NCBI RefSeq assembly: GCF_016892625.1
Contig: NZ_JAFEMW010000001.1
Coordinates: 930,001 to 994,000 of the forward strand
Length of the DNA: 64,000 nucleotides
Direction: 5' to 3'
Source: Brevibacterium sp. RIT 803
Lineage (GTDB): Bacteria > Actinomycetota > Actinomycetes > Actinomycetales > Brevibacteriaceae
This document shows, in pieces, positions 16,460-24,043 of this stretch. Position numbers and translations under genes: made by a program. The number at the start of each line of letters is the position of its first letter. Within the stretch, counting starts at the first letter, position 1. The notes below the pieces were generated by a model. The model did no database searches. It was not told the origin of the DNA and saw nothing but the letters and a program-made list of their open reading frames with translations.

Positions 16460-17887
16460 GTGACAAAAGAGGACGACAGGCAGTACATAGCAGCCGATGG
16501 CAAGCCGATCAATCGGAATGTGGTCCTGGCAGTCCTTGTCTCCGGTGCCTTCGTCATCATCCTCAACCAGACGCTACTCAACACTGCGCTGCCCGCGTTC
16601 ATGCAGTCCTTCGACATCACGGCCAGCGCCGCGCAGTGGGTGACGACGAGCTTCATGCTGGTCAACGGCATCATGATTCCCATCACGGCCTTCCTGATCC
16701 AGAAATTCACCACCCGCGGGCTCTTCCTCACAGCAATGCTGCTCTTCATCGTCGGCACGCTGGTCTGTGCGCTGGCACCTACCTATCCCATCCTTCTTCT
16801 CGGTCGTGTGATTCAGGCCTCGAGCGGCGGCATCATCATGCCGCTGATGCAGACCATTCTCTTCGCAATCTTCCCGGTGGAGAAGCGCGGTACCGCCATG
16901 GGCACATTCGGCCTCGTCATCGCCTTCGCTCCGGCAATCGGGCCCAGCCTCTCGGGCTGGATCGTTGATCACCTGCCCTGGGAAGTTCTCTTCTACATGA
17001 TGTTGCCGATTGCGATCATCGACATCATCGTCGCCTATTTCATCCTCAAGAACGTCACCGAACGCACCTACCCCAAGCTCGACGTCGCCTCGGTCATCCT
17101 CTCGACCTTCGGCTTCGGCGGGCTGCTCTTCGGCTTCGGAACCGCTGGTGACGCAGGTTGGCTGAGCCTCGAGGTCATCATCCCCCTCGCCATAGGTGTG
17201 ATCTCCTTGGCCATCTTCATTCCTCGCCAGTTCAAGCTGGACCAGCCGATGCTCGAGTTCCGAGTGCTCCGCTACCGCATGTTCACCCTCAACACCGCAC
17301 TGGGTATGTGCGTCTTCATCGTCATGATCGGCGGCATGATGATCCTGCCGCTCTACATGCAGAACATGAACGACTTCTCCGCCATGGAATCAGGCTTGGT
17401 GCTTCTGCCGGGTGCGGCAGTGATGGGGTTGATGTCGCCGGTCACCGGGCGCATCTTCGACGCCATCGGCGCCAGATGGTTGGCCGTGGCCGGGTTCACC
17501 CTGCTCACTGTCACAACATTCCTGTTTGCCGACCTCGAGGCAGACACCTCGTTCATCTTCCTTGCCGTGGTCAACACGATCCGTATGTTCGGCGTCGCCA
17601 TGGTGATGATGCCGGTGACCACTGCAGCACTCAATCAGCTCCCGCAGAGCCTCATCCCACACGGGACGGCGCTGAACAACACCTTCCGCCAGATTGCCGC
17701 CTCGGTGGGTACCGCTGTCCTGGTCACCATCATGGTCTCAAGTACACGCGACCCCGAAGTCTACGGAGTCGAGGGGCTGGTTCACGGCGCGGACGTCGCC
17801 TTCTTCGTTGCCGCTGTCATCGGCATATTCGGGATCGTCGGGTCCTTCTTCATCAAGAACTCGCACGGGCTTAAAGTAGAGGACTGA
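16460..17887 (+). CDS. DHA2-family (EmrB/QacA) 14-TM drug:H+ antiporter
   Basis: A 475-aa membrane protein with about 14 hydrophobic helices. The N-terminal helix motif ILNQTLLNTALPAFMQSFDI and the following AQWVTTSFMLVNGIMIP are motif-D type features of the DHA2 group; GPSLSGWIVDHLPWEVLF is motif C of proton-coupled exporters. GTG start with GAGGGAAG upstream. It should export toxic lipophilic compounds. A small hairpin at 17971-18002 follows the gene. No dedicated regulator is adjacent on its upstream side. Confidence 0.88.
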   Translation: MTKEDDRQYIAADGKPINRNVVLAVLVSGAFVIILNQTLLNTALPAFMQSFDITASAAQWVTTSFMLVNGIMIPITAFLIQKFTTRGLFLTAMLLFIVGTLVCALAPTYPILLLGRVIQASSGGIIMPLMQTILFAIFPVEKRGTAMGTFGLVIAFAPAIGPSLSGWIVDHLPWEVLFYMMLPIAIIDIIVAYFILKNVTERTYPKLDVASVILSTFGFGGLLFGFGTAGDAGWLSLEVIIPLAIGVISLAIFIPRQFKLDQPMLEFRVLRYRMFTLNTALGMCVFIVMIGGMMILPLYMQNMNDFSAMESGLVLLPGAAVMGLMSPVTGRIFDAIGARWLAVAGFTLLTVTTFLFADLEADTSFIFLAVVNTIRMFGVAMVMMPVTTAALNQLPQSLIPHGTALNNTFRQIAASVGTAVLVTIMVSSTRDPEVYGVEGLVHGADVAFFVAAVIGIFGIVGSFFIKNSHGLKVED

Positions 17888-18044: not shown

Positions 18045-18803
18045 ATGTCGAAACCCTCGCAGCCCCACATCAGGGCTGTCGAACGAGCCGTCACAATTTT
18101 GCAGACCCTGGAACGAGCACAACGACCTCTGCGCCTCAAAGAGATCGGCGAAGCGGTCGAGCTGCACAGTGCAACGGTGTCGCGGATTCTGTCCACTCTG
18201 CAGGCGTCGAACTACGTCGTCGAAGAGGATCAGCGCTACCGCCTCGGTGCGGCCGTGCTACGGCTCACGCACGGGTACCTGGTCAATGACCCACTCAGCC
18301 AGTTCGCCCGTCCTGTCATGCAGAGCCTGACTAGGCAGACCGGACTGACGTCGACCCTTCACCTGCTCAGCGGACTGGAGCGACTACTCTCAGTTCGAGT
18401 CGATGGCTTCGAACCGATGCAGTATCAGCAGCCGATCGGACGCTGGTTGCCTCTCTTCATCGGGTCTGGCAAAACGATCGCCGCCTTCATGCCAACCCAA
18501 CAGCAGGAGGAAGTCGCGGCACTCGGCGACGGTCATGAGACCACCTCGCATCATGTACTGACAGCTGCAGAGATCCTCGAGGACTTCAAAGGGATCCGAC
18601 ACGATCGCCACCTCGTCTCCATCGGTGAACGCGATATCAGTATCGCGTCCATCTCAGTGCCACTCTTCACAGACGAGACTGTCGCTGGGTCCCTGTCATT
18701 GACAGGACCCAGCGACAGTACGACGCAGGAACAGCTCGAAAAGGTTCTACCTTCCCTGACCTCAGCAGGACACGAGATCAGCCGAATGAAGAGCTACAGC
18801 TGA
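18045..18803 (+). CDS. IclR-family transcriptional regulator
   Basis: A 252-aa protein with the IclR N-terminal winged helix (AVERAVTILQTLERAQRPLR, then HSATVSRILSTLQASNYV) and a C-terminal effector domain from about residue 80. Its 3' end overlaps the convergent lyase gene by 10 bp. It borders the CoA-transferase/lyase/TRAP/dehydrogenase-RraA island and is the most likely regulator of it. Close to its 3' end the coding sequence contains a 40-bp near-perfect palindrome (18679-18718). Confidence 0.88.
   Translation: MSKPSQPHIRAVERAVTILQTLERAQRPLRLKEIGEAVELHSATVSRILSTLQASNYVVEEDQRYRLGAAVLRLTHGYLVNDPLSQFARPVMQSLTRQTGLTSTLHLLSGLERLLSVRVDGFEPMQYQQPIGRWLPLFIGSGKTIAAFMPTQQQEEVAALGDGHETTSHHVLTAAEILEDFKGIRHDRHLVSIGERDISIASISVPLFTDETVAGSLSLTGPSDSTTQEQLEKVLPSLTSAGHEISRMKSYS
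18679..18718. repeat. 40-bp near-perfect palindrome inside iclR coding region
   Basis: The left arm (18679-18698, starting CTGTCGCTGGGTCC) and right arm (18700-18718, ending GGACCCAGCGACAG) are complementary along 19 bp, with a single extra C in the left arm and a one-base centre. It encodes residues of the last domain strand (around SLSLTG), so it is constrained by coding yet almost perfectly symmetric. It can form a strong mRNA hairpin or be a DNA-binding site. Confidence 0.75.
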
Positions 18804-19669
18804 CGCCTATCAACACCCGCACGACGCAGGATCGTCTCCGCCCGAACCACGAACGGCCGATCGACGAACTGTCCGTCGGACAACATCACCGCTCCGCTCC
18901 CCTGCGCTGAGATTCTGTCAGCAGCCTCGACGACGCTGTGTGCCCAGTCGACCTCTTCACTGTCGGGACGGAATGCATCTCGCACAGTCTCCAGTTGCAT
19001 GGGATGCAGAACGGTCCGGCCGAAGAAGCCCATCCCCCGCAGTTTGACCGAATCAGCTCGCAGACCCTCGAGATCTTTGATTCGCGGATAGACGGAGCCG
19101 GAAGGAGCTTCTTTCCCTGCGGCAGCCAACGCCATGACCAGTCGGATCCGGATCTGGTCAAGAACCACTTCACCTTCAAGATTGAGCACCGCCCGCAGGT
19201 CGTTGTCACCCAAGGAGACACTCGACGATCCATCTGCCCGGCAGAGTTCCTCGAGCGCCGCCAGACCCAGGGGTGATTCCAACAGAATTTGGATCTTCTT
19301 TCCCGCACTGATGATGGATTCGATTCGACTAAGATCGGCCAACGATTCGACCTTGGGGACGCGAATCCCTTCAACAGCGGGCAGCCTAGCGATCGCGTTA
19401 AGATCATCGACTCCCCAGGGCGAATCCAAAGCGTTCGCACGCACGAAGATCCGCGAAATTGCTGCGCTGCTGTCCGGTGACTCGCTCACGGGAAGCACGC
19501 TCACCGACGAAAGGAACTCGACAAGCTCGGCTCTGGCGCTGGTCTTCCGATCGACGTGGACAGCATCTTCGAGGTCGAAGATGACCGCATCGGCACCACG
19601 GTGCAGAGCCTTGTCCAACTTGCCACCACTCGATGCCGGAGTATAGAGCCAGGTGCAAATCTCGCTCAT
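18794..19669 (-). CDS. CitE/HpcH-type acyl-CoA lyase
   Basis: A 291-aa TIM-barrel protein of the HpcH/HpaI aldolase family, CitE-like branch. Motifs: RGADAVIFDLEDAVH near residue 27 (metal-site acids), the substrate Arg in FVRANAL, and the catalytic-site Glu in ILLESPLG. The usual G-x-x-D loop appears as LGDNDL. Such enzymes cleave malyl-CoA, citramalyl-CoA or related 3-hydroxyacyl-CoA to acetyl-CoA or propionyl-CoA plus a 2-oxoacid. Its start overlaps the CoA-transferase stop by 4 bp (ATGA), so the two are translationally coupled, making the transferase the likely supplier of its CoA substrate. Confidence 0.85.
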   Translation of the reverse strand: MSEICTWLYTPASSGGKLDKALHRGADAVIFDLEDAVHVDRKTSARAELVEFLSSVSVLPVSESPDSSAAISRIFVRANALDSPWGVDDLNAIARLPAVEGIRVPKVESLADLSRIESIISAGKKIQILLESPLGLAALEELCRADGSSSVSLGDNDLRAVLNLEGEVVLDQIRIRLVMALAAAGKEAPSGSVYPRIKDLEGLRADSVKLRGMGFFGRTVLHPMQLETVRDAFRPDSEEVDWAHSVVEAADRISAQGSGAVMLSDGQFVDRPFVVRAETILRRAGVDRRQL

Positions 19670-20907
19670 AAGACCACCCCCCGGGAGCGCAGATCAGCAA
19701 TCGTCTCCGCGTCCACGCCGAGTCCGGACAGCACCTCGTCCGTGTCCTGCCCATGGCCCCGGCCTGTCCATTCGACACGGCCGGGCGTGTGTGACATGCG
19801 GAACGGAACGTTGAGCATCTTCATTGAGCCGAGATCCTGGTCGTCGATATCGATGACGGATCCCAACGCCTTGTACTGTTCGTCCTCGATGATGTCCTCA
19901 GCGTTGTAGACCAGCGAGGCTGCGGCGTGCGCCTCCCGGAATGCCGCTAATGCGTCGTGCGATGATTTCGTTCTCACCCAGGTGGCGACGGCATCGTCGA
20001 GTTCATCGGCGTGTTCGACTCGGCCCTTGGCCGACTTGAACCATTTTTGCTCGACATATTCACCGTGCCCGACAAGCTCGATGACTCGTTCGGCGATCGA
20101 CTGAGATGACGTCGATACCGCCAGCCATCGACCGTCGGCCGTTTCGTAGAGATTGCGCGGAGCATTGTTCTCGGATCTATTTCCCAGCCGTTTGGGCACC
20201 AGGCCCAACTGGTCGAAGACGCTCACCTGTGGGCCCAGCGCGGAGAGCATAGGTTCGATGAGTGACATATCGATGTGCTGCCCCTGACCGTCAGACAGGC
20301 GCGAATGCACCGCCGTCACCGCGGCGAAGGCGCCCATGATTCCGGCAATGGAATCGGCCAGTGCCAAGGGCGGCAGGGTGGGCGGACCATCGGGTTGGCC
20401 TGTCATCGACGCGAACCCACTCATCGCCTCCGCGAGAGTACCGAATCCGGGCTCACTGGATTTGGGGCCGAACTGCCCAAACCCGGTCACGCTGACGACG
20501 ATCAGGCCCGGATTGATCTCCGAGAGAGCCTCGTATCCCAGTCCCCATTTAGCCATGACACCGGGGCGAAAGTTCTCCACGATGATGTCGACGTCCGCAA
20601 GTAGACTGCGAATGAGGTCTACTCCGGCTGGTTCTTTGAGGTTGACGGCGACGGTCTTCTTGTTGCGTCCAAGCGTCTTCCACCACAGTCCGGTTCCGTC
20701 CTTCTGAAAACCGTGCCCGCGTGCCGCATCCGGCTGCCTCGGATTCTCGACCTTGATGACCTCGGCCCCGTAGTCGCCCAGGAGCGTCGCACACATCGGA
20801 CCGGCGAACAGAGTCGACATGTCGAGCACCTTGAGGCCGTCCAGCGCACCCCGTGATGAATCGGCACTCGCTGATGAGCTGGTGGGTTCTTGCGTCAAGT
20901 GTGTCAC
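19666..20907 (-). CDS. Class III (CaiB/BaiF) CoA-transferase
   Basis: A 413-aa protein with the family III core: GLKVLDMSTLFAGPMCATLLGDYGAEVIKVE at the N-terminus (quoted in part only as a landmark, residues 24-54) and the catalytic Asp185 in LALADSIAGIMGA. It moves CoA from a donor such as succinyl-CoA to a carboxylic acid, in the cytoplasm. GTG start overlaps the upstream small gene's stop (GTGA). Together with the downstream CitE-type lyase it resembles citramalate or itaconate routes, in which an acid is activated and then cleaved. No hydratase is present, so the substrate should already be hydroxylated. Confidence 0.87.
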   Translation of the reverse strand: MTHLTQEPTSSSASADSSRGALDGLKVLDMSTLFAGPMCATLLGDYGAEVIKVENPRQPDAARGHGFQKDGTGLWWKTLGRNKKTVAVNLKEPAGVDLIRSLLADVDIIVENFRPGVMAKWGLGYEALSEINPGLIVVSVTGFGQFGPKSSEPGFGTLAEAMSGFASMTGQPDGPPTLPPLALADSIAGIMGAFAAVTAVHSRLSDGQGQHIDMSLIEPMLSALGPQVSVFDQLGLVPKRLGNRSENNAPRNLYETADGRWLAVSTSSQSIAERVIELVGHGEYVEQKWFKSAKGRVEHADELDDAVATWVRTKSSHDALAAFREAHAAASLVYNAEDIIEDEQYKALGSVIDIDDQDLGSMKMLNVPFRMSHTPGRVEWTGRGHGQDTDEVLSGLGVDAETIADLRSRGVVL

Positions 20908-21161
20908 TCCTCCTCGTCAGCGGATGCTGCTGACTTGTCCGTGTAGGTATAGATGAAAGCGATGATTCCGCTGACCGAGGCCAGTACCACCGCAGGGGCA
21001 TTGAGCGTGCTCGATGCCCAGGTCACCAGGGTCGGATTCGTCATGATCAGACCGATGATCTGAGCGAACACGAGAACGAACCCGGTGATGAGAAACAAGC
21101 TGAATACGATGACGAACAGCGACCGTATGAGTCGCGAGCTCGCAGTTGTCGGCTGAGTCAT
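20904..21161 (-). CDS. Small two-helix membrane protein, candidate transporter subunit
   Basis: An 85-aa protein with two hydrophobic helices (about 11-37 and 53-71) and an acidic C-terminus (DEEE). It lies 10 bp downstream of the TRAP-type permease and overlaps the CoA-transferase start, with AGGAGAAC as ribosome site. In ordinary TRAP systems a four-helix DctQ subunit occupies this genetic place; this protein is half that size. It may be a minimal DctQ analogue or a regulator of the permease. I do not recognise a named family. Confidence 0.7.
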   Translation of the reverse strand: MTQPTTASSRLIRSLFVIVFSLFLITGFVLVFAQIIGLIMTNPTLVTWASSTLNAPAVVLASVSGIIAFIYTYTDKSAASADEEE

Positions 21162-21171
21162 GAGAGTTCTC

Positions 21172-22521
21172 CTAACCCTGCATCGGCACTGGGAGAATCC
21201 CGATGCCCACCAGAATTGCGATGAGCATTACCGGCAACAGGTAGTAGACGATCAGGGGGACGAATGTCGTTTCGGGTTTTGCCTTGACGATGCCCGAAGC
21301 GATGAAGATCGGTGCTGAGGCAGGCGGTGAGGATCCCTCCGTAGACGCCGCAACCAGGACCACGGTGATCGCGAGGACCGGATCGATTCCCACAGCGATC
21401 ATCGACAACATCGACACCTGGCCGATGGCGGACACTGTGGCCGTCGACGAAAGCGGTCCGGCGATGAGCGCCACCAGAACAACTACGATGGCGACGAGAA
21501 CCCATTTCGGCAGGTCCAAACCACTGAGAGTGCTCTCAATGTCTCGCGCCAAGCCGAGTTCGGTGAGCACCGAACTGGCAGCAATGGCGAAGAAGAGCAG
21601 AACACCGATGGGGGCCAACCGAGGGATCGAACCGGCTATCAGCTCGTAGAGTCCCTGCCTCGTCTTAGGAATCTTCTTCCAACCGATGAGCACCGCAAAG
21701 AGAATGATGAGAATAGGGATCCACGTGATGATCGAGATATCGCCCATGGCGTCACCGACCTCTGTCGCATTCTCCAAGAAGGATGCCAGCGGTCCGATGG
21801 TGACAGCGATCGGAATCAGCGCTCCGAGGTAGATGAGGATCGGAACACGACCCTGTTTCCAGGCTTGACCTTTCGAGAGCACATCGATGCCATTACCGGC
21901 CTTGATGTTGTCCCGCCACACGAAGTAGGTGATCAGCAGAAGACGGTAGAAGACCTGGTAGAGACCGCTGACCAGCAGGGCGAGATAGACCGAGCCTGTC
22001 GATGCCAGTCCCCCGGCGAAGCCGAGCATGATGACCATGGACGTGCTCGGAGGAAGGGCGGCACCCATCGCCGAGTTGCCTGCGACAACTGTCGCAGCCC
22101 GGGACGGTTTCCACCCCTCCTTGACCATCCACGGCCCGGTGATCGCGCCGGTTGAGGCGGCATTGCCCGAATTCGATCCGGACAGAGCTCCCATGACGCT
22201 GGAAGCGAGGGTATCGACAAAGGCGGGTCCACCACGAACCTTGCCGAACACCGAGTTCAGTAGGTCGAGGATCTTCTGCATGATTCCGAGTTGGTCGATC
22301 AGATACGTCATGAAGACGAATCCGAGTGCCGCGTAGACGACTTCGTTCTCCGTAGTCGAGGCGATGCCGTCCCACGCGACGGTGAGCGCTTGTGGGCCGG
22401 CGAACAGGCAGGTGGCGATAAAGCCGATGATCATGGCTTCACTCATAGAGCGCTTGAAGGCAACGTTCCACACGATCAAAACCGCGATGAACACCAGCAG
22501 CGCAATCAACGCAATGGGCAT
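21172..22521 (-). CDS. TRAP-type (DctM-like) large permease
   Basis: A 449-aa protein with about 12 hydrophobic segments. The region SGSNSGNAASTGAITGPWMV (residues 115-134) and the following GNSAMGAALPPSTSMVIMLG correspond to the first substrate-binding hairpin of DctM proteins; GSSPPASAPIFIASGI is the matching second hairpin. It should take up a carboxylate using a Na+ or H+ gradient. AGGAGACAT precedes the start. No periplasmic DctP binding protein is nearby, which is unusual for a TRAP system. It heads the operon permease, small protein, CoA-transferase, lyase. Confidence 0.75.
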   Translation of the reverse strand: MPIALIALLVFIAVLIVWNVAFKRSMSEAMIIGFIATCLFAGPQALTVAWDGIASTTENEVVYAALGFVFMTYLIDQLGIMQKILDLLNSVFGKVRGGPAFVDTLASSVMGALSGSNSGNAASTGAITGPWMVKEGWKPSRAATVVAGNSAMGAALPPSTSMVIMLGFAGGLASTGSVYLALLVSGLYQVFYRLLLITYFVWRDNIKAGNGIDVLSKGQAWKQGRVPILIYLGALIPIAVTIGPLASFLENATEVGDAMGDISIITWIPILIILFAVLIGWKKIPKTRQGLYELIAGSIPRLAPIGVLLFFAIAASSVLTELGLARDIESTLSGLDLPKWVLVAIVVVLVALIAGPLSSTATVSAIGQVSMLSMIAVGIDPVLAITVVLVAASTEGSSPPASAPIFIASGIVKAKPETTFVPLIVYYLLPVMLIAILVGIGILPVPMQG

Positions 22522-22547
22522 ATGTCTCCTTCGTCAAGCCCGATGGT

Positions 22548-22562
22548 TTGCATCTGGTGCAA
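22548..22562. promoter_or_regulatory. Inverted repeat in divergent promoter of the catabolic island
   Basis: The dyad TTGCATCTGGTGCAA (arms TTGCA/TGCAA, 5-bp spacer) lies between the permease operon and the dehydrogenase-RraA gene. A related palindrome TTGCAA occurs at 22583-22588 and a TTGACA -35-like box at 22563-22568. The 166-bp gap is the only divergent promoter region of the island and is where the neighbouring IclR protein would be expected to act. Confidence 0.4.
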
Positions 22563-22687
22563 TTGACATTCGCAGTATGCGATTGCAATGCACTCGATGT
22601 ACAGTACGTGGCAACGGTCACAAGCGCAAGAGCGAGTGCCGCACAGTAAGTTCCCAACAGCTTTCGCATCACTTCAATGGAGGAATA

Positions 22688-24043
22688 ATGCGCGTATCCA
22701 TTCTGGGTCTCGGAGAAGCAGGCCGAGTCTTCTCATCAGCGTTCGCGACAGCCGGGTGGGGTGTCTCTGCCTTTGATCCGGCGGACACCCCGACCCCGAA
22801 AAATGTCGCCCGATTCGACTCCGTCGGCCCGGCAGTCGCTGATGCCGACCTCATCCTCAGCCTCACAACTGCACGCTTCGCGGTAGGCGCCGCAGCGGAT
22901 GCGGGTTCGCACCTGAAGGACGATGCGGTCTTCATTGACCTCAACGCCGCATCGCCTGGGTGTAAGCGCGAGGTCGCCACGGCCCTGGGCAACGAGACTC
23001 AGCTAGTCGACGGTGCCGTCCTCGGCTCTGTGATGAAGTTCGGCCCGAACGTCACAGTGCTCCTCGCCGGCCCGCGGGCACAGTCGGGCGCATCCCTCCT
23101 GTCTCAGATCGGCGCTAAGACAGTTGTGATCAGTGAGGAGATCGGCTCAGCATCGCAGCGGAAGCTGGTCCGCAGCGTCTTCGTCAAGAGCCTCGCCGCA
23201 TTGATCGCAGAGTCAATGGATGCTGCACGGGCCTTCGACGGCGAGCAGTGGATGAAGGAACAGATCGCGGAATGGCTCAACGACGGTGATTCCACCATCA
23301 ATCGCCTCGACCACACGACACGGTTGCACGCTGGCAGGCGCAGCCATGAACTCGAGGACAGTCTCGGCGTACTCGCAGAGCTCGGCGTCTCCTCCACCGT
23401 TACAGAAGGTGCCTTGGCTACTCACCTGCGGTACGCGCGGTCGAAGGCAGACGATCTTGCGGCCGCCCTGGCCGAGGTTCCGACTCCAGCATTGGGCGAT
23501 GCTAATGAACGTCGCGGACTCATGCACTCCGCGATCAAACCAGTCTGGGCATCTCCGCGGATCGCCGGACGCGCGTTCACAATTGAAACGAGAGCTGGCG
23601 ACAACAAGGCGATCCATGACGCGATTGCCGACATCCGTCCGGGCGCTGTCGTCGTCATCGACGGTCGTGCAGAGACGGAACGTGCTCTGATCGGTGACCT
23701 GATCGCCGAGCGCCTTCGTGACGCCGGCGCCGTCGGAGTCGTACTCGACGCCGCAGTTCGCGATGTCAGCGGAATTGCCGAACTCGACTTTCCGACATTC
23801 GCTCGGGCAGTGACACCGGCGGGGCCATATCGTCATGGCCCCGGACGCCATCAGGTCCCGATCTCCATTGGAGAAGTGGTGTGCCACCCGGGTGATTACA
23901 TCGTCGCCGATGAGGACGGGGTCATGGTTCTACCAGGATTGCAGGCCGAGTCGATCCTCAAAGGAGGTCTGGCCAAACTCGAGGCAGAGGCCAAGCAGAG
24001 CGCTGCCCACCGACGCGCTGTTCGCGCTAAGGCCGCCGACTGA
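22688..24043 (+). CDS. Dehydrogenase-RraA fusion (6PGDH-like + HMG aldolase-like)
   Basis: A 451-aa two-domain protein. Residues 1-255 are a beta-hydroxyacid/6-phosphogluconate-type dehydrogenase: Rossmann motif ILGLGEAGRVF (5-15), then a DUF1932-like helical domain (about 160-250). Residues 265-420 are an RraA/HMG-aldolase fold: GDLIAERLRDAGAVGVVLDA (336-355) with Arg358-Asp359 and the end motif CHPGDYIVADEDGVMVLP. The usual DG before the RD is DA here. RraA-type enzymes cleave 4-hydroxy-4-methyl-2-oxoglutarate-like acids or decarboxylate oxaloacetate; the fusion suggests oxidation of a hydroxy-acid channelled to C-C cleavage. Start has GGAGG 5-9 nt upstream. Divergent from the permease/CoA-transferase/lyase operon. 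Confidence 0.85.
   Translation: MRVSILGLGEAGRVFSSAFATAGWGVSAFDPADTPTPKNVARFDSVGPAVADADLILSLTTARFAVGAAADAGSHLKDDAVFIDLNAASPGCKREVATALGNETQLVDGAVLGSVMKFGPNVTVLLAGPRAQSGASLLSQIGAKTVVISEEIGSASQRKLVRSVFVKSLAALIAESMDAARAFDGEQWMKEQIAEWLNDGDSTINRLDHTTRLHAGRRSHELEDSLGVLAELGVSSTVTEGALATHLRYARSKADDLAAALAEVPTPALGDANERRGLMHSAIKPVWASPRIAGRAFTIETRAGDNKAIHDAIADIRPGAVVVIDGRAETERALIGDLIAERLRDAGAVGVVLDAAVRDVSGIAELDFPTFARAVTPAGPYRHGPGRHQVPISIGEVVCHPGDYIVADEDGVMVLPGLQAESILKGGLAKLEAEAKQSAAHRRAVRAKAAD

Follow-up and report, generated by a model that had tools for sequence, protein, structure and literature searches.

A conserved gene module around a DUF1932 dehydrogenase-RraA aldolase fusion in Brevibacterium and its relatives, with a putative role in hydroxy-acid import, oxidation and cleavage

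A stretch of 64,000 nucleotides from Brevibacterium sp. RIT 803 (assembly GCF_016892625.1, contig NZ_JAFEMW010000001.1, positions 930,001 to 994,000; hereafter the window) contains a gene for a two-domain protein in which a DUF1932-type dehydrogenase is joined to an RraA-type aldolase. Across genomes, this fusion gene forms part of a conserved unit that consists of an IclR-family regulator gene, the fusion gene and a gene for a DctM-like permease, nearly always with a gene for a small protein and sometimes with one for a cyclase-family hydrolase. The domains, the active-site residues and the gene neighborhoods suggest that the unit may be an import, oxidation and cleavage module for a 2,4-dihydroxy di- or tricarboxylate or its lactone, the putative substrate being a reduced relative of 4-hydroxy-4-methyl-2-oxoglutarate (HMG) or 4-carboxy-4-hydroxy-2-oxoadipate (CHA), a reading in which our confidence falls just short of even.

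The unit was delineated in 21 module loci, namely, the window, 19 fusion-bearing relatives and one Arthrobacter plasmid on which the two halves are separate genes, one of them broken. All 21 carry an IclR gene together with the permease gene and the fusion or its two halves, the IclR gene being adjacent to and divergent from the fusion in 11 loci (L036-L044, L091 and L092) and located at the far end in L093, L095-L097 and L099. A homologue of the 85-amino-acid (aa) membrane protein of the window accompanies them in 19 of the 21 loci, with a twentieth in L097, and a cyclase-family hydrolase in six (PF04199 was checked on four cyclases, those of L092, L093, L099 and L187, the others being BLAST relatives); a further fusion locus, L099, has both the cyclase and the small protein. 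Wherever the order was read, the permease gene lies downstream of the fusion on the same strand; it diverges from it only in the clade of the window, where genes for a CoA-transferase and a CitE-like lyase are added. This pair is found in four of the 21 loci, those most closely related to the window. In a preliminary description, all of these genes had been treated as a single acid-degradation island; when fusion and gene order were searched in other genomes, the IclR, fusion and permease genes held together, but the CoA genes fell outside the conserved unit. The second module of the window's genome adjoins what remains of an Ldh_2-like dehydrogenase gene, interrupted by many stops (contig C7, L036:2000-2645); its counterpart in a relative is a long Ldh_2 match (L039:6667-7851).

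The two-domain protein itself is real. An origin of the fusion by frame error or assembly artefact, the refutation envisaged in the preliminary description, is ruled out by 21 distinct near-full-length copies in six genera, each in one reading frame; two of them are in the genome of the window, the second being a full-length paralogue with 50% identity to the first. The nearest named relatives are those of Brevibacterium sp. UCMA 11754 (96%), CCUG 69071 (94%) and S22 (88%). Matches at E 1e-40 occur in 12 of 57 Brevibacterium genomes, ten with near-full-length fusions (13 copies) and two with the dehydrogenase half only, and matches at E 1e-55 in 13 of 396 genomes of the order (six Brevibacterium and seven others; five of 109 genera), while a sample of the phylum yielded two of 396 genomes, that of the window and one from a sixth genus. 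The halves are also found unfused yet neighboring, in two genomes of genus g6 (L172 and L180) and on the Arthrobacter plasmid, and the existence of such versions argues that DUF1932 and RraA proteins form a working partnership. The plasmid (StoSoilB13, L029) was counted as a split version despite its RraA gene, which is broken across frames (L029:9001-9580) and intact in a related genome (L172). The dehydrogenase tree needs one fusion change (64% of bootstrap trees), and the aldolase tree two, with 52% of its bootstrap trees showing one; these trees and the 20-row alignment of the fusions omit L040, a near-copy of L039.

Both active sites appear to be intact. The RraA-like domain of the fusion is recognized by PF03737 with 149 bits against a cut-off of 24.5, and the two dehydrogenase models, NAD_binding_2 and DUF1932, fall marginally under their cut-offs in the protein of the window (24.7 against 25 for PF09130, DUF1932, and 20.9 against 21 for the other), the DUF1932 model exceeding its cut-off in single relatives and in other fusions. 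In the dehydrogenase half, the GxGxxG motif (G7, G9 and G12), Asp30 and the Arg158-Lys159 pair are invariant in all 20 aligned fusions, Lys159 presumably being the catalytic lysine of the superfamily. In the aldolase half, Asn306, Gly336, Arg358, Asp359 and Glu434 are likewise invariant (20/20), and position 337 is Asp in the protein of the window and Glu in the other 19, yielding the acidic residue-X20-Arg-Asp motif as D337-X20-R358-D359, plus E434. Arg358 and Asp359 align with Arg-123 and Asp-124 of the HMG/CHA aldolase of Pseudomonas putida (3noj), and Glu434 corresponds to Glu-199 by counting four residues beyond the printed alignment. According to a study of the P. putida enzyme (PMC5065237), Arg-123 is indispensable for stabilizing the enolate, and Asp-124 and Glu-199 bind the metal. 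The aldolase half does not reach the NCBIfam equivalog cut-offs, scoring 141 against 179 bits for NF006731 and 129 against 304.5 for TIGR02798. Predicted structures of the fusion and the permease were unusable, with mean pLDDT values of 35.3 and 33.7, respectively.

These features can be combined into a candidate pathway. The DctM-like permease and its two-helix partner would import a short di- or tricarboxylate bearing a hydroxyl group, or the corresponding lactone. As judged from domain and residues, the DUF1932 half would then oxidize the 2-hydroxyl group with NAD+, yielding a 4-hydroxy-2-oxo acid of the HMG/CHA type, and the RraA half, for which the residues strongly suggest a divalent-metal-dependent pyruvate aldolase, would cleave this acid, releasing pyruvate together with either oxaloacetate or another pyruvate as the second oxo acid. 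Because there is no hydratase between the halves, the product of the dehydrogenase should be the substrate of the aldolase, a 4-hydroxy-2-oxo acid, so that its precursor would be a 2,4-dihydroxy acid. Such acids can lactonize, which would explain the recurrent cyclase-family hydrolase: where present, it may open the gamma-lactone formed from the 2,4-dihydroxy acid. The acid would be sensed by the IclR regulator.

Several close unfused relatives of the two halves lie in gene clusters for the turnover of oxalomesaconate (OMA) and CHA, late in the breakdown of lignin-type aromatics. Of the two unfused RraA genes nearest to the fusion, that of L009 (Pseudarthrobacter, 49-51%) belongs to a LigAB cluster, with a PIG-L gene on one side and ligA/ligB on the other, and among the unfused DUF1932 genes that group close to the fusion in the tree (L029, L030, L045 and L153), those of L045 and L153 have an OMA tautomerase gene within 5 kb (445.5 and 453.6 bits against a cut-off of 440). 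A PF09130 search of 297 genomes of the order at E 1e-6 gave 27 loci in 12 genera, the copy of the window, being below the model cut-off, not included, and the wider stretches of all 27 were read. At 21 of the 27 loci, in eight of the 12 genera, an RraA aldolase is either fused or encoded within the same roughly 16-kb stretch. Eight are module loci (six fused, two unfused), and 13 of the remaining 19 are OMA/CHA clusters with an RraA aldolase and an OMA-hydratase-type gene (LigJ in nine, PIG-L in four), 11 of which also have an OMA tautomerase and eight a relative of VOC-type extradiol dioxygenases. In a small control of eight other loci these families were absent, except in L151, which had been picked for its permease. 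Two unfused loci have the permease alongside the separate halves, in the order RraA-DUF1932-permease-small protein-cyclase in L187 (cyclase confirmed by Pfam) and RraA-DUF1932-permease-cyclase in L191, each with an IclR gene; in these two and in L029, the latter by eye, a tripartite tricarboxylate transporter (TTT) set or TctA lies upstream.

Plasmids extend this picture to bacteria outside Actinomycetota. The fusion query matches 714 of 72,556 plasmids, 18 of which align with at least 80% of its length at a single site, and in the ten of 20 listed records that were opened (including the Arthrobacter plasmid; the Arthrobacter and Sinorhizobium stretches, being unannotated, were read by gene calls) the DUF1932-type and RraA genes are separate neighbors. 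In R. daejeonense the pair stands with OMA enzymes and a TTT transporter; Nitratireductor likewise has a TTT transporter, together with an alpha-hydroxy acid oxidase. Rhizobium Pop5 has a permease unmatched by that of the window, Priestia a CitMHS transporter nearby, and Methylobacterium an FAD/Fe-S protein and an SMP-30 lactonase-type gene. Aromatic genes accompany the pair in Thermus, the Shinella record has several RraA genes, and that of Diaphorobacter a protocatechuate 4,5-dioxygenase cluster. Additional hydroxy-acid dehydrogenases or oxidases recur beside such pairs, as Ldh_2 in L039, the oxidase in Nitratireductor and the FAD/Fe-S protein with SMP-30 in Methylobacterium. A gene of the family DUF6282, possibly a lactonase, also recurs near DUF1932, RraA and PIG-L genes (L042:13688-14566, L030:6347-7267 and L186:7616-8605); no paper with this term was found in the open-licence literature.

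Production of CHA from OMA within this genome appears unlikely. The window contains no dioxygenase, OMA tautomerase or hydratase gene. In the genome, a LigJ query gave no match and a GalB-like PIG-L query only weak ones (E ~6e-4), each search consisting of one query without a positive control by the same method (by blastp, the same LigJ protein matches other actinomycete loci at about 60%). The OMA tautomerase matches score 267 and 244 bits against the cut-off of 440, and no OMA hydratase was found around these matches or around two of the three other RraA-domain genes. The lack of a LigJ match, the weak PIG-L matches and the tautomerase scores argue against an internal route and would favor an imported precursor.

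The putative importer resembles a secondary transporter of the DctM type but, by the searches below, does not qualify as a tripartite ATP-independent periplasmic (TRAP) transporter. The preliminary description had called the permease TRAP-like; its assignment to the DctM family (PF06808) holds, and two relatives score 159 and 143 bits against the same model, but no DctP partner was found. A tblastn search at E 1e-3 of 22 module sequences, with four closely alike DctP proteins of one type, detected no DctP near the permease, some of these stretches ending at contig ends and a very divergent binding protein being able to escape such a search. The genome has six DctP and 14 DctM matches, and among the DctP matches listed, all are on contigs other than that of the window. 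The 85-aa protein has no Pfam or NCBIfam family at E 0.001; the best sub-cut-off match among its homologues is to DUF4153 (E 0.0026, one homologue), and a Pfam scan of the protein and five homologues with a maximal E of 10, the filters of which drop most matches above about 0.1, gave no DctQ match. A genuine TRAP system is therefore not supported, with neither a DctQ match nor a DctP gene beside the permease. Nine of 11 aligned homologues of the small protein have two predicted helices, the other two having one helix over the threshold, and a Gln in helix 1 is invariant. A search at E 1e-40 finds the permease in 11 of the 57 Brevibacterium genomes, including all ten with the full fusion, and it adjoins each of the 13 fusion copies; small-protein homologues also lie beside permeases without a fusion, and G056 has permease and small protein but no fusion. 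G046 has extra, identical-looking pairs of DctM-like permease and small protein on several contigs (L152 C18 and L153 C26), which lie beside transposase-like genes (by eye) and a major facilitator superfamily (MFS) gene and look mobile; one of them lies near an OMA tautomerase gene, a LigJ-like end and an unfused DUF1932 gene.

The CoA-transferase/CitE-like pair has a different distribution. The families are those named in the preliminary description, as Pfam confirms, and the nearest solved chains of the lyase are 8khl and 9nzb, beta chains of acyl-CoA lyases (E ~1e-35). Neither protein reaches an NCBIfam equivalog cut-off, and assignments to the itaconate enzyme RipC (NF038242; 119 against 375 bits) and to citrate lyase (citE; 121 against 443) were rejected as far too low. 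Lyase matches at E 1e-25 are found in 30 of 248 genomes of the order, that of the window included. A CoA-transferase of 53-57% identity lies within the same 3-4 kb at 14 of 18 further lyase loci (L102-L119, in some of which the lyase frame is masked by an overlapping gene call), the lyase identity of these pairs being 36-42%. In all eight wider lyase stretches, genes for ADP-ribosylglycohydrolase-like proteins and companions form one gene cluster, as read by eye. This actinomycete cluster (L120-L127, e.g., L121:1194-8874) comprises genes for ADP-ribosylglycohydrolase-like proteins, a PfkB kinase, a protein with an FGE-sulfatase domain, the CoA-transferase and the CitE-like lyase, most identified by eye and the first three checked by Pfam in L121 only; it looks like a cluster for the degradation of a glycosylated acid. 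We interpret these two genes as a transferable unit that would have been joined to the module in the clade of the window, where it may serve a second beta-hydroxy acid (e.g., citramalate) or a by-product.

Several points weigh against import, oxidation and cleavage as the role of the module. The CoA branch is left unexplained by it, and no paper giving DUF1932 a function was found in the open-licence full-text literature. Thr145 of the reference aldolase corresponds to Pro380 in 20 of 20 fusions and Lys147 to Arg or Lys, so that the substrate preference may have moved. The link to OMA/CHA clusters is incomplete: the other nearest unfused RraA gene (L010, actinomycete metagenome-assembled genome, 52%) has no Lig or OMA neighbor, flanks of 1.5 kb show an RraA gene at only ten of the 27 DUF1932 loci, six of these being fusions, six of the 27 have none of these neighbors, and a single genus (g9) contributes seven of the 13 clusters, the remaining six being spread over five genera. 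No LigC- or LigI-type best hit was found at the DUF1932 loci (best BLAST hit, one reference each), and in the aromatic clusters DUF1932 could act otherwise, as a dehydrogenase of a ring-cleavage semialdehyde. As the trees stand, a single origin of the fusion is possible. The case against internal supply is limited by the single-query LigJ and PIG-L searches, and the genome has three further RraA-domain matches, one of which, on contig C8 (L206:4909-9750), is near extradiol-dioxygenase-like (27%) and aldehyde-dehydrogenase-like genes, which argues that another aromatic ring-cleavage route is probably present.

Other reactions could be assigned to the same domains. In an oxidative decarboxylation, a malate-like 2-hydroxy acid (hydroxycitrate, methylmalate or a tartrate-like acid) would be oxidized to a beta-oxo acid that the RraA half decarboxylates, a convergent malic enzyme. 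DUF1932 is of the 6-phosphogluconate dehydrogenase (6PGDH)/beta-hydroxyacid dehydrogenase type, the mapped enolate and metal residues are retained in the fusions, and oxaloacetate decarboxylation and the aldolase reaction share a pyruvate enolate, as stated in the P. putida study (PMC5065237); nevertheless, the unfused pairs are often partnered by enzymes of the OMA/CHA route, whose product is a true aldol substrate, and we consider this reaction unlikely. It is still less likely that the dehydrogenase half acts after the aldolase, reducing oxaloacetate or pyruvate with NADH to malate or lactate, or detoxifying oxo acids reductively. The direction of the redox reaction is not fixed by the data, the aldolase products are oxo acids, and DUF1932 occurs with CHA-aldolase-type genes in 13 aromatic clusters; however, cells normally already own malate and lactate dehydrogenases, and hydroxy-acid enzymes, among them the alpha-hydroxy acid oxidase, are repeatedly found next to the pairs, with the proviso that Ldh_2 can also run in reverse.

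An equally low probability is given to the model of the preliminary description, in which one imported hydroxy acid (citramalate or an itaconate-derived acid) is cleaved in parallel by the CoA-transferase with the CitE-type lyase and by the fusion. Four Brevibacterium genomes have all of the genes together, overlapping frames occur in the window, and the families and the relationship of the lyase to 8khl and 9nzb are in line with this proposal; but the pair is missing from 17 of the 21 module loci and sits elsewhere in an unrelated gene cluster, so that parallel CoA-dependent and CoA-independent cleavage of one substrate is without comparative backing, and the scores described above do not sustain a citramalate or itaconate route. 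Taken as a whole, that interpretation is partly supported. Least probable of all is a role of DUF1932 as an alternative dehydrogenase for CHMS, the ring-cleavage semialdehyde, which would replace LigC and make the fusion an uncoupled leftover of an aromatic operon. At six loci (L182-L185, L192 and L194), DUF1932 is indeed found between an extradiol dioxygenase-like gene and an OMA hydratase gene, and neither LigC nor LigI is a best hit there; yet DUF1932 coexists with a Gfo/Idh/MocA gene in Diaphorobacter, the window and the eight module loci scanned with the same reference set are devoid of dioxygenase, OMA tautomerase and hydratase genes, and the fact that 20 of 20 fusions conserve both active sites argues against a relic.

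The genes and families at the locus (Table 1) are as the preliminary description had placed them, the coordinates being confirmed and Pfam agreeing. The 559-aa open reading frame from the first ATG of the frame (22364) was rejected as the fusion gene because it is too long; a GGAGG motif sits 4 nt before 22688, which is most likely the start and yields 451 aa. The minus-strand genes are tightly packed, with 4-nt overlaps between the lyase and transferase genes and between the transferase and 85-aa protein genes, and a gap of 10 nt between the latter and the permease gene; iclR is convergent with the lyase gene and overlaps it by 10 nt. The divergent promoter region has a mean column identity of 91% in the four aligned genomes, and an operator search in it revealed no clear palindrome, just one 7-nt inverted repeat. 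Immediately upstream of iclR (16460-17887) is a DHA2-family MFS efflux gene (TIGR00711, 372 against 230 bits), which is probably unrelated to the module.

Table 1. Features of the fusion locus (positions in the window)
Feature	Position	Strand	Basis
IclR-family regulator, 252 aa	18045..18803	+	Pfam HTH_IclR and IclR_C
CitE/HpcH-type acyl-CoA lyase, 291 aa	18794..19669	-	PF03328
Class III CoA-transferase, 413 aa	19666..20907	-	PF02515, 389 bits; GTG start
85-aa membrane protein, two predicted helices	20904..21161	-	Hydropathy and alignment of 11 homologues
DctM-like permease, 449 aa	21172..22521	-	PF06808, 168 bits against a cut-off of 23.8
Intergenic region of 166 bp, divergent promoter region common to permease operon and fusion gene	22522..22687	.	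Four-genome alignment
DUF1932-dehydrogenase/RraA-aldolase fusion, 451 aa	22688..24043	+	Pfam, homologues, alignment
Dehydrogenase half of fusion, residues 1-249	22688..23434	+	GxGxxG, Asp30, Lys159; solved relatives 1i36, 3qsg, 4ezb
RraA aldolase half of fusion, residues 251-451	23438..24040	+	Asn306, Gly336, Asp337, Arg358, Asp359, Glu434 mapped on 3noj

A wider proposal, which we regard as possible but on balance unlikely, is that DUF1932 is the missing dehydrogenase of the OMA/CHA branch, which would recover the 2-hydroxy forms of reduced HMG or CHA (as lactones, with a lactonase) for the aldolase. The Brevibacterium-type module would then be a stand-alone scavenger with its own binding-protein-free, two-part DctM importer, in which the halves are fused so that the labile 2-oxo acid may pass directly from one to the other. 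The reading of the module as a whole offers a first, testable function for the DUF1932 dehydrogenase family and would add a salvage entry to the pathway that is used for lignin aromatics; the module also seems to suggest a DctM-type permease that works with a two-helix partner in place of a binding protein. HMG/CHA aldolases, DUF1932 structures without a stated substrate, CoA-transferase/CitE pairs and DctM permeases are already-known kinds, and no mention of the fusion, the module or the link of DUF1932 to OMA/CHA clusters was found in the open-licence literature.

The module resembles several known systems without coinciding with any of them. With the HMG/CHA aldolases (LigK, GalC and PmdF; PDB 3noj), the fusion shares PF03737 and the positions of Asn71, Gly101, Asp102 (Asp/Glu), Arg123, Asp124 and Glu199, whereas the Brevibacterium aldolase sits behind a fused dehydrogenase, has Pro in place of Thr145 and scores below the equivalog cut-offs. 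The DUF1932/6PGDH-like dehydrogenases (1i36, 3qsg and 4ezb) have in common with it GxGxxG, the acidic residue 30 and the Arg-Lys pair 158/159, but the solved members are named conserved or NAD-binding proteins with no substrate stated, and the protein of the window is fused to an aldolase. Several close unfused relatives of both halves are found in clusters of protocatechuate 4,5-cleavage and the gallate lower pathway; in contrast to these clusters, the module has no dioxygenase, OMA tautomerase or hydratase and has its own permease. This permease belongs to the large-permease family (DctM) of the TRAP transporters, from which the module differs in that no DctP was found nearby and that the small partner, with two predicted helices, does not match DctQ. 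The CoA-transferase and CitE-type lyase of the itaconate/citramalate route (RipC and Ccl) are, finally, of the same two families as the adjacent, overlapping genes of the window, although the latter pair is well under the equivalog cut-offs and stands outside the conserved module.

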